From Nitrospira sp. (lineage in GTDB: Bacteria > Nitrospirota > Nitrospiria > Nitrospirales > Nitrospiraceae): 38,806 nt of DNA. This document shows, one piece after another, positions 28,627 to 36,664 of this stretch. The notes below the pieces were generated by a model. That model did not search any database and was not told the DNA's origin. It saw only the letters and a program-made list of their open reading frames with translations. The stretch is from positions 335,186 through 373,991 of the forward strand of contig JABMDK010000017.1 in NCBI GenBank assembly GCA_015903995.1. The letters run 5' to 3'. The position numbers were made by a program, and so were the translations under genes. Position 1 is the stretch's first letter; every line of letters begins with the position of its first letter.

Positions 28627-28750
28627 GAAGACCCTCAGGTGACAAAAAACTGACGGGCCGAACTCTTTTGTACCGCCAAATAAGTGGAAATTACCCGCCT
28701 TCGGGAAATACGTACCTCATAAGTCATTGAAATGATGACATATGACAAAT

Positions 28751-28766
28751 TGGTGCAGCTTTTGCT
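28751..28766 (+). promoter_or_regulatory. Sigma54 (-24/-12) promoter candidate
   Basis: TGGTGCAGCTTTTGCT has GG-N10-GC spacing, TGG at -24 and TTGCT at -12. It lies 46 bases before the ATG of the small zinc-ribbon gene, which fits a start of transcription near 28778. Confidence 0.5.
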
Positions 28767-28811
28767 TAAGTTTGCCACCAGCTGTGAACGTCGCCACCTT
28801 GGGAGGGGTCA

Positions 28812-28985
28812 ATGGAATGTCCGAAGTGCAAAGGGATGATGATGTTGGAGCGGTTCTCTGATTTCTTTCTTGTATTCTATGCATGGAAATGCATCAACTG
28901 TGGCGCCATTATCGACCGTACGATCTCGAACAATCGTCGAAAGAGTTTGGCTGCCAAGGATTCTCAGACCGTCGCGACTCGGTAG
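28812..28985 (+). CDS. 57-residue zinc-ribbon protein
   Basis: Begins MECPKCKGMMMLERFSDFF and continues VFYAWKCINCGAIIDRTISN, ending in a basic tail NRRKSLAAKDSQTVATR. Two CxxC pairs (Cys3/Cys6 and Cys27/Cys30) form a small zinc ribbon around an aromatic segment FLVFYAW. The ATG follows a strong site (GGGAGGGG) and a sigma54-like promoter. No partner gene is adjacent: radC diverges, and rsmD starts about 250 bases later. The function is unknown. Similar mini zinc ribbons act as nucleic-acid or protein adaptors. A weak hairpin (AGGACGA/TCGTCCT, 29041-29059) follows and may end the transcript. Confidence 0.7.
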   Translation: MECPKCKGMMMLERFSDFFLVFYAWKCINCGAIIDRTISNNRRKSLAAKDSQTVATR

Positions 28986-29183
28986 ACGTTAGCACTTCAT
29001 ACTCGGGTCTCTGGTCCGTCTGATGGCCTGCTTGAACTGCAGGACGAATATCTCGTCCTTGTCGTACCAAACAGAGCGACGATCGCATTATAATCTTCTC
29101 CAAGAAGACGGTCAAAAGAGTATTCGATGATCCTTCCAGGCTCAGGTGCGGATTAGTTGGCCTCCCCTTCCACTCAGCATTTC

Positions 29184-29213
29184 TTGACCCCTGCAAAAAC
29201 GCTATGTTAGATT
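29184..29213 (+). promoter_or_regulatory. Candidate promoter for rsmD-coaD
   Basis: TTGACC (29184-29189), 18 bases, TAGATT (29208-29213), 25 bases before the rsmD start codon. Confidence 0.4.
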
Positions 29214-29238
29214 CTCATGCTGGACGATGTTGTCTGGT

Positions 29239-29759
29239 ATGCGTGTGATCGCTGGTACTCACCGAGGTCGTCGACTCTACGGGCCGCGAACACTTGCTCT
29301 TCGCCCAACCTCTGACCGGGTTCGAGGGACCTCTACGCCGGGACTGGAGCCGTGGGGATCGAAGCCGTCAGTCGTGGCGTTGAACACGTGACCTCCGTCG
29401 AGTCGAACCGGGACGCGTTGAAACTGCTGCAGCAAAACATGGAGCTCTGTCACATCGGTGAGGAAATAACCGTGCGGGGTCGGACCGTTCAACAGTTTCT
29501 CAACCATCCCGATCAGTGGAACGGTCCCTATGATATCGTCTTTGCCGATCCACCCTATGCGGAGACGTCCGAACTGCCGTCATTGCTGGCAGAGGCTCAG
29601 ACGCATGATCTGTTTGCCCAGGACTCCTGGCTGGTCATCGAACATGCTGCGAAAACCGACTTGCCGATGTCGTTGGGCTGCACTCAGTTTTTACGTCGGT
29701 ATCGCTACGGTGATACCGCCTTATCCCTCTATTTCCGTTCTCCTGCTGTACCGGCATGA
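29239..29759 (+). pseudogene. rsmD: 16S rRNA (guanine-N2)-methyltransferase RsmD, internally deleted and out of frame
   Basis: The intact enzyme methylates G966 of 16S rRNA with SAM. From ATG 29239 the frame reads MRVIAGTHRGRRLYGP and reaches PTSDRVR, as expected. It then jumps at 29325-29328 to DLYAGTGAVGIEAVSRG (the SAM motif) in another frame. In the family about 16-20 residues (ESLFN... up to the SAM motif) stand between these blocks. So about 50-60 bases are missing and the frame is shifted. The downstream part is otherwise complete, with catalytic DIVFADPPYAETSE, and could be expressed only from an internal ATG at 29352. The stop overlaps coaD (ATGA). Either a true lesion or an assembly error. 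Confidence 0.75.
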
Positions 29760-30244: not shown

Positions 30245-31438
30245 AATTGGCAGCACGTGTCGGCCGTATTGCGCCCTCTCCGACGTTGGCCATGGCTGCA
30301 ACGGCCAAGGCTATGGCGGCACAAGGACTCGATGTCATCGACTTTTCAGCCGGAGAACCGGATTTCGACACGCCGGAGCCGGTGAAGGCCGCGGCAGAAG
30401 CGGCCATACGCGAGGGATTTACCAAATACACGCCTTCATTCATCCGGGATCGATGAGTTGCGGAGCGCGATTGCCGACAAGTTCCAAGCCGAACTTGGGC
30501 TTCGGTATGAGAAGTCTCAAATCCTTGTCTCTTGCGGGGCAAAGCACTCGCTCTACAATTTGGCGGAGGCCTTGCTCGAAACGGGTGACGAGATCATCAT
30601 TCCGATCCCCTACTGGGTTTCTTATGCGGATCAGGCGCTTCTCAACGATGCGACGCCGGTTCTGTTACCGACCAAAGAGGAGGATGGGTACGCAATTCAT
30701 ACTCCAGAGTTGGAACGACTCATTACGCCGAGAACCAAGGCCATCATCGTGAACAGTCCGTGCAACCCGACCGGTGCAACCTATGATCGGGCGACGCTGG
30801 AACAGATTGCCTCAGCAGCGGTCCGGCACGACCTTCTGGTCATATCGGATGAGATTTATGAAAAGGTGCTCTACGATGGGGCGACGCACATCAGCATTGC
30901 CTCGTTGGGATCGGAGATCGCAGCACGCACGGTCATCATCAATGGCGTATCAAAGTCTTACGCCATGACAGGGTGGCGAATCGGATACGCGGCCGGTCCC
31001 AAGGATCTGCTGACCGCGATGGCCAATATCCAGAGTCAGAGTACCTCGAATCCCTGTTCCATCTCGCAGAAGGCGGCCGTCGCTGCGTTGCGTCTTGGGG
31101 AGCCCTTTACGCGCACAATGGTGGAAGAATTTTCCCGTCGCCGAACTGCTATCGTGGAAGGGTTGAACAAGATTCCCGGTGTGTCATGCCGAATGCCGAG
31201 TGGGGCCTTCTATGCGTTTCCTAATGTGAAAGGCTTGTTGGGGAGACGTGGACCTTCGGGAGTGCTGAAGACCCCGAATGACCTGGCGCAATATCTCCTG
31301 CATGAAGCCCAAATCGCGGTCGTTCCTGGTGAACCCTTTGGAAGCCAGGAGCATCTCCGGCTCTCCTATGCCACCAGCATGACGAATATCACCCGAGGAC
31401 TTGAGCGAATGGGGCAGGCGTTCGAGAGGTTAGCGTAA
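30241..31438 (+). pseudogene. aspC: Aspartate aminotransferase, copy A, broken by a 4-bp duplication
   Basis: A class I PLP aminotransferase. The first 65 or so residues (MKLAARVGRIAPSPTLAMAA to FTKYTPS) are followed by TTCATTCA at 30435-30442. Removing one TTCA restores KYTPSSGIDELRSAIADKFQ and a 397-residue protein of normal length. As written, translation ends after 71 residues. The downstream part is complete, with NSPCNPTGATYDRATLE, ISDEIYEKVLYDG, the PLP lysine in NGVSKSYAMTGWRIG, and the substrate-carboxylate Arg near HLRLSYATSM. Substrate preference within the family (Asp, or broader) is uncertain. A second copy lacking its 5' end is at 33310. Confidence 0.85.
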
Positions 31439-31478
31439 GGGAGTTGAGGTCGATGCAACGATAAGAGGGAGGAAAGCG

Positions 31479-31856
31479 GTGCCGATTTACGAATATCAGT
31501 GCGACGGCTGTTCGTATCGTTTTGAAGTAAAGCAGAGCATCAAGGATGATCCGCTCTCGACATGTGAACGGTGTGGGAAAGCGATCAGACGGCTGATTTC
31601 ATCGCCTGGAATCATGTTTAAGGGGAGCGGCTGGTACGTCACCGACTACTCCGATAAACTCAAACCTCCATCCAGCACGGGCGGTGAAACCGGTGGGACG
31701 AGTACCGGAGAAAAAAATGCTGGAGAAAAGAAGGAGCCGGCCGCGGCTGCTCCATCAAGCACTGCCCCTTCTTCTTCTACAGCGCCGTCGACTGCGGCGT
31801 CGGGCAGCTCGTCAGCGTCTACACCGAGTACGACGACGCCCTCCTCTTCACAGTAG
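31479..31856 (+). CDS. FmdB-type zinc-ribbon protein, copy A
   Basis: A 125-residue protein with a GTG start behind GAGGGAGG. The N-terminal 45 residues are the FmdB/CxxC_CxxC_SSSS zinc ribbon: MPIYEYQCDGCSYRFEVKQS, then CERCGKAIRRLISSPG. The segment IMFKGSGWYVTDYSDK is the usual FmdB continuation. The tail is low complexity (Ser, Thr, Ala, Pro, with GEK units). The family is named after a putative regulator in Methylophilus, but no activity is proven. It lies 40 bases after the aminotransferase and converges with the lipoprotein gene. A copy, 129 residues long, is at 34307. Confidence 0.85.
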   Translation: MPIYEYQCDGCSYRFEVKQSIKDDPLSTCERCGKAIRRLISSPGIMFKGSGWYVTDYSDKLKPPSSTGGETGGTSTGEKNAGEKKEPAAAAPSSTAPSSSTAPSTAASGSSSASTPSTTTPSSSQ

Positions 31857-31869
31857 GCACCTGGGCCGA

Positions 31870-32307
31870 TTATCGGATACCGACTGCTTTGGAACCCTGG
31901 TTTTTGCCTGCCGGCGTCTTAGGGGCGCTTTTGGAGGCTGGTCTGGTGGCGGCCCTTCCGGTTGGTTTCGCCGGTGTTTTATGAGGCAGTGCCTTCTGAC
32001 CCATCGCCTTCAATGCTCTCGCGCGGGTCGCATCCAGCTGGTTTTGGAGGCTGGTGATCATGCCGGTTTTTTCCCGGTTGATGCGGCTTAGTTCATCAAG
32101 CTGCCCCTGCAGCTCTTGTTTGGTCTGGGATAAGTCGGTGACCTGGGCCTGAAGCTGAGTCTTCTCTATGGCCAGGGTTTGGGCCTCCGACCGCAATTGT
32201 TCGATCTCAGCCTGTAAGGCTGGCGGCCAATAATCACATCCCACAAGGCCAAGTGCGAAGCCGAAACCAACGACCGTACTGAGTACCCGCATCGGATGGC
32301 GTGTCAT
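31870..32307 (-). CDS. Coiled-coil lipoprotein, copy A
   Basis: About 145 residues. The signal (VVGFGFALGLVGC-DYW) has a clear lipobox LVGC. The mature part is a long coiled coil (LQAEIEQLRSEAQTLAIEKT, then VTDLSQTKQELQGQLDEL), and a basic Lys/Ala/Pro tail follows. This recalls Lpp- or YbgF-like spacer proteins of the envelope, but no family can be named. GGGG lies 7 bases before the ATG at 32307; an ATG at 32313 is too close to it. Two earlier residues of the frame are probably not translated. The paralogue is at 34710-35117. Confidence 0.7.
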   Translation of the reverse strand: MTRHPMRVLSTVVGFGFALGLVGCDYWPPALQAEIEQLRSEAQTLAIEKTQLQAQVTDLSQTKQELQGQLDELSRINREKTGMITSLQNQLDATRARALKAMGQKALPHKTPAKPTGRAATRPASKSAPKTPAGKNQGSKAVGIR

Positions 32308-32790
32308 GGCCATTCCCCTTTCATCAGACATGATCCGTCTTTACCAGGTGCTAGTGTAGACATGCTCTGTCCTTCTTATGTTGTGCACTGACTATCGTGG
32401 GAAGATATCTTAACAGATCGCACCAATCGGCTCAGAAGAAGATTGGCCCAGGGTGTTCGGATCTACATCGACTTCGGGAGGTAGATCCAGGTAGCTCTAG
32501 CAGGTTCCGGAAAAACTCATTGTGACCTCTGTAGCCGTCGCAGAGATCGAGGTTGGGGACGACGCTGAACAGCCACGCAGGATGCGCAAAAAAACCGTCC
32601 AGCAAGGCCGCAGCGAGCGAAGAGGCGACGCGTACTCTGGGCCGTACGTTGAAGCCTCTGAGCGAGGCGAGAACGCCGCTGGCGGTCTTTTTCCGCATCC
32701 TGCTAGGTCGGCAGCGTCGATGAGTGCTCGTGGTGAGATCGACGTGATTGCTGGCTGGATGGGTCGTTCGAGGAGAGTGGCTGTCCCGGG
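32308..32790. other. Intergenic stretch containing a palindromic repeat
   Basis: About 480 bases between the copy A lipoprotein and the purD fragment. The first 200 bases match 35118-35320 of copy B. The piece about 32502-32720 has no partner there and contains the REP-like element. The last 70 bases again match copy B. A TGTTAAGAT extended -10 box on the minus strand (TGTTACAAT in copy B) may drive the lipoprotein. Open frames here are products of the palindrome. Confidence 0.6.
32577..32703 (+). repeat. Palindromic interspersed repeat (REP/MITE-like), copy 2
   Basis: Ends are exact inverted repeats, GCAGGATGCG (32577-32586) and CGCATCCTGC (32694-32703). Next to them lie AAAAAA-CCGTCCAGC and GCTGGCGGTCTTTTT, so the outer 25 bases pair almost fully. 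The core CCAGCAAGGCCGCAGCGAGC is shared with the element at 12011-12130. It is absent from the other copy of the duplicated block. Confidence 0.8.
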
Positions 32791-33310
32791 TTATGTCGTA
32801 AGGGCCCGCTGTGCGATGTCCGTCCGGAAGTGACAACCCTCAAAAGAGATCGTTCTCACGACTCGATAGGCCTCGCCTTGTGCCTCAAGTAACGTTTGGC
32901 CTCGACCGAGCACACCGAGGACGCGGCCTCCTGCGGTCACGATCTCATTCCCTTTCTGTGTGGTCCCCGCATGAAATACCACCGAGGAGTCCGACGAAAT
33001 GGTTGCCGGGGGGAGTCCAGAGAGTACCATCCCCTGCTGATAGGCACCGGGGTAGCCTCCAGATGCCATCACCACGCAGACCGTCGCGTCCGGATGCCAC
33101 TCAACGGGAAGTTGGTCAAGCCGATGTTCAATCACAGCTTCAAGGACATCAATTAAGTCATTCTTAAGCAAGGGCAACACAACTTGAGTTTCTGGATCGC
33201 CCATACGAGCGTTGAATTCGAGTACGTATGGTGTCCCATTCACCACCATCAGTCCTGCATACAACACACCTTGGAATGGCGAGCCGAGCCGTGCCATGGC
33301 GTCCACCATT
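32791..33310 (-). pseudogene. purD: purD, C-terminal fragment (copy A)
   Basis: Matches residues 253-424 of the complete PurD at 35390 (MVDAMARLGSPFQGVLYAGL through EGCHFRTDIA). It includes the ATP-grasp block VLEFNARMGDPETQVVLPLL and the C-terminal domain, but lacks the N-domain and most of the ATP-grasp fold. Upstream the sequence switches at 33310 into antisense aspC, so the open frame to 33375 has a meaningless N-terminus. It cannot be a functional GAR synthetase. Differences from the complete copy are mostly conservative or silent, showing it was functional until recently or comes from another strain. Confidence 0.85.
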
Positions 33311-34266
33311 TCCAAGCCGAACTTGGGCTTCGGTATGAGAAGTCTCAAATCCTTGTCTCTTGCGGAGCAAAGCACTCGCTCTACAATTTGGCAGAGGCCT
33401 TGCTCGAAGCGGGGGACGAGATCATCATTCCGATCCCCTACTGGGTTTCGTATGCGGATCAGGCGCTGCTCAACGATGCGACGCCGGTTCTGTTACCGAC
33501 TAAGGAGGAGGACGGGTACGCCGTCCATGCGTCAGAGTTGGAACGACTGATTACGCCGAGAACCAAAGCCATCATCGTGAACAGCCCGTGTAACCCAACC
33601 GGGGCCACGTATGATCGGGCGACGCTGGAACAGATTGCCGCCGCCGCGGTCCGGCACGACCTCCTGGTCATTTCGGATGAGATTTATGAAAAGGTGCTCT
33701 ATGATGGGGCGACGCACATCAGCATTGCTTCGTTGGGCTCGGAGATCGCGGCACGCACGGTCATCATCAACGGCGTGTCAAAGTCTTACGCGATGACCGG
33801 GTGGCGCATCGGGTACGCAGCCGGTCCCAAGGATCTGCTGACCGCGATGGCCAATATTCAGAGCCAGAGTACGTCGAATCCTTGTTCGATCTCGCAGAAG
33901 GCCGCTGTGGCGGCGTTGCGTCTTGGGGAGCCCTTCACTCGCGCCATGGTGGACGAGTTTTCCAGACGCCGGATCGCCATTGTGGACGGGTTGAACCAGA
34001 TTCCCGGTGTGTCATGCCGAATGCCGAGCGGGGCGTTCTATGCATTCCCGAACGTGAAAGGTTTGTTGGGGAAACGTGGACCTTCTGGCGTGCTGAAGAC
34101 CCCGAATGACGTGGCGCAATATCTCTTGCATGAGGCGCGAATTGCGGTCGTGCCAGGTGAACCGTTTGGAAGCCCAGAGCATCTTCGGCTTTCCTATGCC
34201 ACCAGTATGACCAATATCACCAGAGGGCTTGAGCGTATAGGGCATGCGTTCGCGAAGTTAGCGTAA
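33310..34266 (+). pseudogene. aspC: Aspartate aminotransferase, copy B, 5'-truncated
   Basis: Begins at residue 80 of the family (FQAELGLRYEKSQILVSCGA) and continues intact to the normal end, with the PLP lysine in NGVSKSYAMTGWRIG. The N-terminal arm and first part of the small domain are missing. The open frame starts at 33184 within antisense purD and would add about 42 unrelated residues; no ribosome site is seen. Its protein differs from copy A at about 20 of 318 positions, while DNA differs at roughly 9%. Confidence 0.85.
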
Positions 34267-34306
34267 GAGTGAGACGGTTGCTGCAACGATAAGAGGGAGG
34301 ACAACG

Positions 34307-34696
34307 GTGCCGATTTACGAATATCAGTGTGACGGCTGTTCGTATCGTTTCGAAGTGAAGCAGAGCATCAAAGATGATCCGCTCTCGACATGTGAACGGT
34401 GTGGGAAATCGATCAGACGGTTGATTTCATCGCCCGGGATCATGTTTAAAGGGAGTGGCTGGTATGTCACCGACTACTCCGACAAGCTCAAACCTCCCTC
34501 CGGCACGGGCAGCGAAACCAGCGGGACAAGTTCCGGAGAAAAGAGTTCCGGAGAGAAGAGTGCTGGAGAAAAGAAGGAGTCGGCTGCAGCTGCTCCATCA
34601 AGCACCGCCTCTTCCTCCCCTGCGTCGGCTGCGGCGTCGAGCAGCTCGGCGATGTCTACGCCGAGTACGACGACGCCGTCCTCTTCAACAAAATAG
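34307..34696 (+). CDS. FmdB-type zinc-ribbon protein, copy B
   Basis: A 129-residue paralogue of the protein at 31479 with the same GTG start and ribosome site. The zinc ribbon is identical apart from GKSIRR for GKAIRR. The tail differs by an added unit: SGEKSSGEKSAGEKK here against TGEKNAGEKK. At DNA level this is a 15-base tandem repeat (34529-34573, three units against two). It converges with the copy B lipoprotein, 13 bases between the stops. Confidence 0.85.
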   Translation: MPIYEYQCDGCSYRFEVKQSIKDDPLSTCERCGKSIRRLISSPGIMFKGSGWYVTDYSDKLKPPSGTGSETSGTSSGEKSSGEKSAGEKKESAAAAPSSTASSSPASAAASSSSAMSTPSTTTPSSSTK

Positions 34697-34709
34697 ACTC
34701 GTGGGCCGG

Positions 34710-35117
34710 TTATCGGACGCCGATTGCCTTGGGAGCGCTTTTAGCCGTCGGCCTCGTGGCGGCCTTCACGGTCGGTTTCGTCCGCATTTTATAAGGCGGT
34801 GCCTTCTGAGCCGTCGCCTTCATCGCTCTCGCCCTGGTCGCATCCAGCTGGTTTTGAAGGCTGGTGATCATGCCGGTTTTTTCCCGGTTCATGCGGCTCA
34901 GTTCATCAAGTTGCTCCTGTAGCTCCTGTTTGGTCTTGGTCAGATCGGTGACCTGAGCCTGAAGCTGAGACTTTTCAATCGCCAGGGTTTGAGTGTCAGA
35001 TTTCAATTGCTCGATCTCAGCCTGCAAGGCCGGCGGCCAATAATCACATCCCGCAAGGCTCAGTGCGAAGCCGAACCCAACGACTGTACGGAGTGCCTGC
35101 ATCGGACGGCGTGTCAT
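34710..35117 (-). CDS. Coiled-coil lipoprotein, copy B
   Basis: About 135 residues, paralogue of 31870-32307. The lipobox is LAGC (FALSLAGC-DYW), and the coiled coil (LQAEIEQLKSDTQTLAIEKS) is well conserved. The basic tail is shorter than in copy A, lacking the TPAGKNQGSK segment. The start is chosen at 35117 for the GGGG site 7 bases upstream. It lies downstream of purD on the same strand, 270 bases away. An extended -10 box (TGTTACAAT on the minus strand, about 35219-35227) may be its promoter. Confidence 0.7.
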   Translation of the reverse strand: MTRRPMQALRTVVGFGFALSLAGCDYWPPALQAEIEQLKSDTQTLAIEKSQLQAQVTDLTKTKQELQEQLDELSRMNREKTGMITSLQNQLDATRARAMKATAQKAPPYKMRTKPTVKAATRPTAKSAPKAIGVR

Positions 35118-35389
35118 GGCCATTCCCCTTTCATCAGAAATGATCTGTCTGTTCCAAATGCTGGTATAGACATGCTGTATCCCTTGTATGTTGTGCGCGG
35201 ACTATCGTGGGAAAATATTGTAACAGATCGCAGGAATCGGCTGAGAAGAAGATCGGCCCTGAGTAGCCAGATCTATATCTATTCAGGGAGATAGATCCAG
35301 GTGGCTCTGGCAGGTTGCGTAGATGAGTCTTTGGGGTGAGATTGATCTGCTCGCTGAATGGGTCGTTCGAGGAGCGTGACGGTTCCGGT

Positions 35390-36664
35390 TTATGTCTTCA
35401 GCGCCCGGTGTGCGATGTCTGTCCGGAAGTGACAACCCTCAAATGAGATCGTCTTCACGACTCGATAGGCCTCGCCTTGTGCCTCCAATAATGTTCGCCC
35501 TTGACCGAGTACGCCGAGGACACGGCCTCCGGATGTCACGATCTCATGCCCTCTCTGTGCTGTTCCTGCATGAAAGACCATCGAGGAGTCCGACAAGCCT
35601 GTTGCGGTGGGGAGTCCTGAGAGCGGTAGTCCCTGCTGGTAGGCACCAGGGTAACCTCCCGATGCCATGACTACGCAGACCGCTGAGTCCGAGTGCCATT
35701 CAACAGAAAGTTGGTCGAGCCGATGTTCAACGACTGCTTCAAGAACATCGACTAAATCAGTCTTCAGTAAGGGTAGCACGACTTGAGTTTCAGGATCGCC
35801 CATGCGCGCGTTGAACTCAAGCACGTAAGGCGTTCCATGCACTATCATCAGCCCGGCATACAGCACGCCTTGAAACGGCGAACCAAGTCGCGCCATGGCA
35901 TCCACCATCGGCTGCAAGACCTCACGACGGACTTGATCTTGGAGCTCGGTCGTGCCCAGCGGGGCCGGGCAATAGGCGCCCATCCCGCCGGTATTCAATC
36001 CGGTGTCTCCATCGCCCACCCGTTTATGATCCTGTGCCGGTGGCATCGGCACCACGGTCTTGCCATCGGTAAACGCCATAATCGTCAGTTCCTCGCCGTC
36101 AAGAAACTGTTCGATCAGCACCTGTTTGCCGGCTTGGCCGAATACGGCCTTCTCCATTGAATCGAGGATCGCCTGCGTGGCTTGGTCCTGAGTGGTGGCA
36201 ATGATGACGCCTTTCCCTTGCGCCAGCCCATCCGCTTTAATCACCACCGGTAATTCGTGCCGTTCGACATAGGCGAGCGCGTCCGCGATCTTTTCGAAAC
36301 TTCTGGAGTGAGCCGTCCGGATCTTGGCTTGTGCCATGACCTCCTTCGAGAAAATCTTGCTGGCTTCCAGCCGTGCGGCGCTCCTGGTTGGTCCGAACAC
36401 TCTGAGCCGAGCTTTTCGGAATTCATCGACGATACCCAACGCGAGCGGCACTTCTGGCCCGATCACCGTGAGATCAATCTTTTCTTTGATTGCGAATTTT
36501 TTTAGCCCGGCGACGTCGTCCGACTTAATCGGAATGCAGGTCGCCATTGATGCAATCCCCGCATTGCCGGGAGCGCAGTACAGGACCGGCTTGCGAGGAC
36601 TTTGCGCGAGCTTCCACACCATCGCATGCTCGCGCCCTCCGCTGCCGACAACGAGAATGTTCAT
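35390..36664 (-). CDS. purD: Phosphoribosylamine-glycine ligase (GAR synthetase)
   Basis: A 424-residue ATP-grasp enzyme, the second step of purine synthesis. N-domain: MNILVVGSGGREHAMVWKLA and APGNAGIA. ATP-grasp: LPVVIKADGLAQGKGVIIA, EQFLDGEELTIMAFTDG, PPAQDHKRVGDGDTGLNTGG and VLEFNARMGDPETQ. C-domain: CVVMASGGYPGAYQQG. Complete and of normal length. purH lies 119 bases upstream on the same strand, giving the common purHD order. The part from residue 253 is duplicated at 32791-33310. Confidence 0.95.
   Translation of the reverse strand: MNILVVGSGGREHAMVWKLAQSPRKPVLYCAPGNAGIASMATCIPIKSDDVAGLKKFAIKEKIDLTVIGPEVPLALGIVDEFRKARLRVFGPTRSAARLEASKIFSKEVMAQAKIRTAHSRSFEKIADALAYVERHELPVVIKADGLAQGKGVIIATTQDQATQAILDSMEKAVFGQAGKQVLIEQFLDGEELTIMAFTDGKTVVPMPPAQDHKRVGDGDTGLNTGGMGAYCPAPLGTTELQDQVRREVLQPMVDAMARLGSPFQGVLYAGLMIVHGTPYVLEFNARMGDPETQVVLPLLKTDLVDVLEAVVEHRLDQLSVEWHSDSAVCVVMASGGYPGAYQQGLPLSGLPTATGLSDSSMVFHAGTAQRGHEIVTSGGRVLGVLGQGRTLLEAQGEAYRVVKTISFEGCHFRTDIAHRALKT

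Follow-up and report, generated by a model that had tools for sequence, protein, structure and literature searches.

A diverged tandem of aspC-to-purD inside a Nitrospira contig: a probable assembly chimera of co-occurring lineages

Chimeric contigs have been described in metagenome assemblies, including Salmonella/E. coli chimeras in the assembly of a mock community in the available portion of one report (PMC8172020), and they have been counted per genome by assembler in the accessible part of another (PMC11261854). Microhomology of 3-10 bp at illegitimate junctions is usual, though not invariable, according to the consulted section of a third (PMC3240628). A literature search, which was not aimed at the bin considered here, found no account of it among the papers listed. 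The locus presented below, a doubling of the genes from aspC to purD in a Nitrospira draft genome, is most likely a chimera created in assembly: DNA of another Nitrospira lineage from the same sample (copy A) would have been spliced gaplessly into a contig of the background lineage.

The draft genome (G000) has 3.55 Mb in 145 contigs, a completeness of 90% and a contamination of 5.9%. The window, i.e., the whole stretch of 38,806 nucleotides that was analysed, is an entire gapless piece (335186-373991) of its scaffold C55, which consists of 21 pieces joined via 20 runs of 100 N; such runs were left by the scaffolder even where pieces overlap by 74-99 bases. Two short pieces of C55 are diverged second copies of their neighbours (88% and 92%). 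The contamination, these 88-92% copies and the unequal closeness of the copies at five loci described below indicate more than one closely related lineage; G000 is a mixed, scaffolded bin.

Self-BLAST of the window found only two head-to-tail blocks, of 2828 and 2599 bases, exactly the tandem that an earlier note on this DNA had reported (Table 1). The same note held that copy B aspC and copy A purD are both cut at the shared junction, and comparison with the G006 proteins bears this out: copy B aspC starts at about codon 79 of 397, with the 5' end missing, and copy A purD comprises residues 253-424 of 424, while the purD 3' part of copy B continues intact to 36664. The copies were said to differ by about 9%, nearly all silently. 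The differences are indeed mostly silent (76 synonymous and 19 non-synonymous in aspC, 65 and 28 in purD), but the figure of 9% fits aspC only (95 of 957 sites, 9.9%), the identity being 85% from aspC to the lipoprotein gene and 81% in the purD piece.

Table 1. Features of the doubled block and its left side (positions in the window)
Feature	Position	Strand	Basis
Likely left switch from background to A-like lineage	29140..29272	.	Statistical change point; coincides with an intergenic/coding border
rsmD site without 49 bases that 12/12 aligned relatives have; frameshift	29326..29327	+	G006 proteins, alignment
4 extra bases in aspC, absent in 12/12 aligned relatives; frameshift	30438..30443	+	G006 proteins, alignment
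Copy A: aspC 3' part, fmdB-like, lipoprotein-like (-), dispersed repeat, last 172 codons of purD (-)	30482..33309	+	Self-BLAST, G006 proteins, Pfam
56-base run in copy A, identical to 33310-33365	30482..30537	+	Sequence comparison
Dispersed repeat of about 210 bases, copy A only	32496..32706	+	Self-comparison, genome search
Junction purD(A)/aspC(B): no N, no base common to either side	33309..33310	.	Sequence comparison
Copy B: 5'-truncated aspC, fmdB-like, lipoprotein-like (-), purD 3' part	33310..35908	+	Self-BLAST, G006 proteins, Pfam
56-base run opening copy B, identical to 30482-30537	33310..33365	+	Sequence comparison
Intact purD, 424 aa	35390..36664	-	G006 proteins, Pfam

In the relatives of the locus, mostly Nitrospira metagenome-assembled genomes, the block is single-copy: across 80 loci, a number of them truncated at contig ends, none of 13 segments occurred a second time within a locus. 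A second aspC match occurs in G047 (full-length) and G035 (partial), both 6% contaminated, on another contig and not in tandem; in G026 and G037, aspC is split in two pieces. The junction as a query matched 74 of 78 genus relatives, none of them running more than 8 bases across.

Microhomology at the junction amounts to 0 shared bases when copies A and B are taken in place of the parent ends, which are not seen. Divergence on the purD side reaches right up to the junction, save for 8 identical bases at the edge. On the aspC side, the 55-56 bases noted earlier as identical to copy A are a run of 56, starting at the junction itself, whose chance is about 10% at the local divergence of 4% (a rate that includes the run) and 0.2-0.3% at the gene-wide rate. 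Inside the run, A and B share two bases unlike all eight clade relatives, which some outgroup relatives have; this counts against a chimera. The length of the run had been read as a de Bruijn k-mer of 55, an argument that finds no support here. Exact contig-end matches in G000 cluster at 99 (24 of the 92 terminal matches of at least 31 bases), and none of the 92 is of 55 or 56. Unrelated bases are not joined in a de Bruijn graph without supporting k-mers, and a k-mer common to both aspC copies cannot alone join purD to aspC. An unpopped bubble at k=55 was likewise rejected, for it would make copy A match B exactly at either end, and at the purD end only the last 8 bases agree before divergence sets in.

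The descent of the copies and flanks was followed in trees and by private substitutions, the latter counted against all eight clade relatives. The left flank, the purD 5' part, purH and copy B aspC and purD are placed between the relative L043 and the core clade on branches of 0.06-0.10 (0.098 for the left flank, 0.095 for the purD 5' part, 0.085 for copy B aspC), and the copy B lipoprotein gene just outside L043 on a branch of 0.155. In copy A the branches are short for aspC (0.029) and for the lipoprotein gene (0.020), whereas the purD piece, with a branch of 0.076, stands outside L043. Private substitutions in aspC were 13/798 in A vs 33/797 in B (p 0.003), and in fmdB-lipoprotein 11/626 vs 34/581 (p 0.0002); in the purD piece, 20/402 and 21/406 showed no difference, which counts against a chimera in that copy A is not uniform. 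By these sequence comparisons, copy B and the flanks are assigned to the bin's background lineage, and the aspC-fmdB-lipoprotein part of copy A to another. The lineage change at the join is accordingly seen for aspC, fmdB and the lipoprotein gene, the purD piece at the join differing in tree position only. Since copy A purD is unlike the rest of copy A, copy A may itself be patched, with the change across its dispersed repeat.

To the left, the statistical change point lies at 29173, outside the repeated block (interval 29140-29272), and the A-like signal apparently sets in at about 29.2 kb, which is not firm because the change point is also an intergenic/coding border; private substitutions in the segment 29201-30481 are at an intermediate level (26/1005). 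Two further ideas were rejected, a single crossover of a circle and a graph switch, each at the 56-base run: either would keep the left flank native to 30481, and a change at 29173 gives a fit better by 9.5 log units, though at the coding border and with the intermediate segment to its right. A short way to the left of the likely switch, at 28707-28985, there is another dispersed repeat, which G000 matches at four other places (80-83%).

The home of the second lineage was not revealed by the lipoprotein matches tried as markers: copy A matched the bin's own contig at 100% and the next at no more than 86% among the best 120 of 623 matches, and copy B at no more than 81% among the best 120 of 274. 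The dispersed repeat of copy A was not discriminating either, the nearest among the matches listed being G026 (93%), G017 (92%) and G000 (91%). It has matches in at least 72 of 79 genus genomes, G000 included, and a query of 30.4-36 kb gave at least 46 matches in G000, nearly all at this repeat.

Both clearly frameshifted genes of the window by comparison with G006 proteins, rsmD and aspC, lie in or beside the block. The rsmD frame, at 29227-29759, is broken through the 49-base loss. The other frame breaks are those to be expected in the duplicated genes, and one in a short ORF, probably not a gene, which overlaps an opposite-strand gene. When 74 G006 ORFs were screened over 99 kb of C55, this aspC and a single repetitive gene were flagged, by a rule that missed rsmD.

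Similar structures recur in the same assembly. Gapless direct repeats of at least 400 bases, with 75-98% identity and within 15 kb, were scanned for in 1,217,795 bases (1.22 Mb) of G000, giving 19 pairs, which after removal of three in one repetitive gene and joining of split pairs make about 14 loci; by the same rule, the four pairs detected in 800 kb of five relatives were without exception at that repetitive gene. The 80 named loci of the relatives represent a single locus and contribute little more than the 800 kb of the five genomes already does; the 38 repeat pairs in these loci, with spacings mostly in 303-base steps, were assigned to the neighbouring repetitive gene collectively, not one by one. 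The gene at C55:376695-382042 is internally repetitive, with a period of about 303 bases, and the relatives have it at the same place. A looser count of abutting repeats of at least 120 bases (9 in G000, 5 in the controls) is not discriminating and counts against a chimera.

Five of the 14 loci were compared copy by copy (this one, mtnA at C55:323.7-326.6 kb, C113:5515, C124:3205 and C13:46366), and there may be ordinary paralogues among the remaining nine. Only one match was present in each relative, and in 19 of 19 copy-pair-by-relative comparisons it was always the same member of a pair that came closer, by 1.1-12.6 points. At aspC-purD the closer one is copy A (4.5-5.5 points); elsewhere it is copy 2, by 7.0-12.6 points for mtnA, 8.7-10.0 for C13, 1.1-5.5 for C113 and merely 1.7-2.7 for C124, this last small gap counting against a chimera. 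The C13 pair closes with 99 identical bases, the commonest contig-end overlap, and at C113 and C124 the closer part reaches the end of the piece or nearly so, the next piece resuming the relatives' gene order. The two mtnA copies, outside the window at C55:323746-324863 and 325455-326571, are gapless with both frames intact; the right one, and on to about 329 kb, is 97% identical to G006, and the left one 85%.

An old in-place tandem duplication, whose copies diverged later within one genome, would explain the head-to-tail arrangement, and yet is hardly credible. Its copies should be each other's closest relatives and its cut genes should decay, and neither was found: none of the trees (aspC, lipoprotein, purD) places A and B as sisters, and dN/dS against the relative L042 is 0.045 for copy B aspC and 0.129 for copy A purD, beside 0.040 for aspC and 0.138 for purD between L042 and L043. 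Against L043 the ratio for copy A purD is higher, 0.205; those between A and B (0.064 in aspC, 0.096 in purD) are within the range between relatives. Judged by these ratios, both cut halves evolved under purifying selection, as working genes, and the earlier contention that an in-place duplication cannot yield selected halves of cut genes is thus upheld by dN/dS and the trees.

Real import from a related Nitrospira through one-sided (homology-facilitated illegitimate) recombination is also unlikely, although it has more in its favour. Homologous exchange near 29.2 kb, with the purD end of the incoming DNA joined illegitimately to native aspC at 33309/33310, would leave the partial tandem; one boundary does lie in homologous sequence near 29.2 kb, as far as a switch confounded with the coding border tells, and the other joins unrelated sequence, the flanks and copy B are of one lineage, the join is gapless, and such events are described for naturally competent bacteria in the available text of PMC3240628. 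However, the 3-10 bp microhomology given there as usual contrasts with none at this junction, two housekeeping genes in or beside the block are frameshifted, and the controls have no structure comparable to those at the roughly 14 loci in 1.22 Mb of G000, so that the import would have had to occur often within one contaminated bin. Among the best 120 of 7929 protein hits, none covers the fused ORF past its purD part, which makes up no more than 89% of the query; this is a weak negative, as the fused ORF of the bin itself is likewise unlisted. That all the joins are real, made by a Nitrospira population repeatedly integrating the DNA of related species one-sidedly, is slightly more doubtful still; it would mean fresh interspecies partial tandems of housekeeping genes at some ten loci per Mb, with aspC and rsmD broken at this locus.

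The joining of strain variants during assembly, as the earlier note suggested, is the best-supported reading, given that the bin is mixed and scaffolded, that the copies differ in lineage, that the pattern recurs in the same assembly, that relatives have a single copy and that two genes are frameshifted. We infer that the assembler or a step of gap closing, rather than an event in a cell, produced the join. The insert would probably be copy A, from about 29.2 kb to 33309, within a background of the left flank, copy B and the right flank. Contigs of the co-existing lineages, differing by some 8-19%, would be too different to merge, so that both would be kept and laid in series; the region common to them would then appear twice, cut at arbitrary points within genes, and such patching would have left further scars in rsmD (49 bases lost), in aspC (4 bases gained) and in the shift of relatedness across the dispersed repeat of copy A. 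Against the assembly chimera it counts that the junction shares no k-mer for de Bruijn joining, that the run is of 56 and not 99 bases, and that the join is gapless where the scaffolder leaves 100 N, so that another step must have made it. G000 has no other copy of rsmD-coaD-aspC 5' or of purD 5'-purH, hence neither parent contig is in the bin, which tells against certainty.

The doubling of aspC-to-purD is therefore probably not to be read as a real gene duplication, and the bin probably carries strain-chimeric joins inside gapless contigs; its duplications, gene losses (aspC, rsmD) and transfer events need checking against the reads. Scanning for diverged direct repeats that are single-copy in relatives offers a cheap test for such bins.

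With homology-facilitated illegitimate recombination, as set out in the consulted section of PMC3240628, the locus shares one homologous and one illegitimate boundary and an insertion coupled with loss of native DNA, and differs from it in the lack of junction microhomology, in the many loci of one contaminated bin and in the frameshifts in or beside the block. Like the chimeric contigs of metagenome assemblies, as far as the available portions of PMC8172020 and PMC11261854 describe them, it would join related genomes of one sample in a contig. Unlike those of PMC8172020, always at contig ends in the accessible text, the join here is inside a contig, and, unlike in the known chimeric contigs, the shared region is kept twice, in series and gapless.
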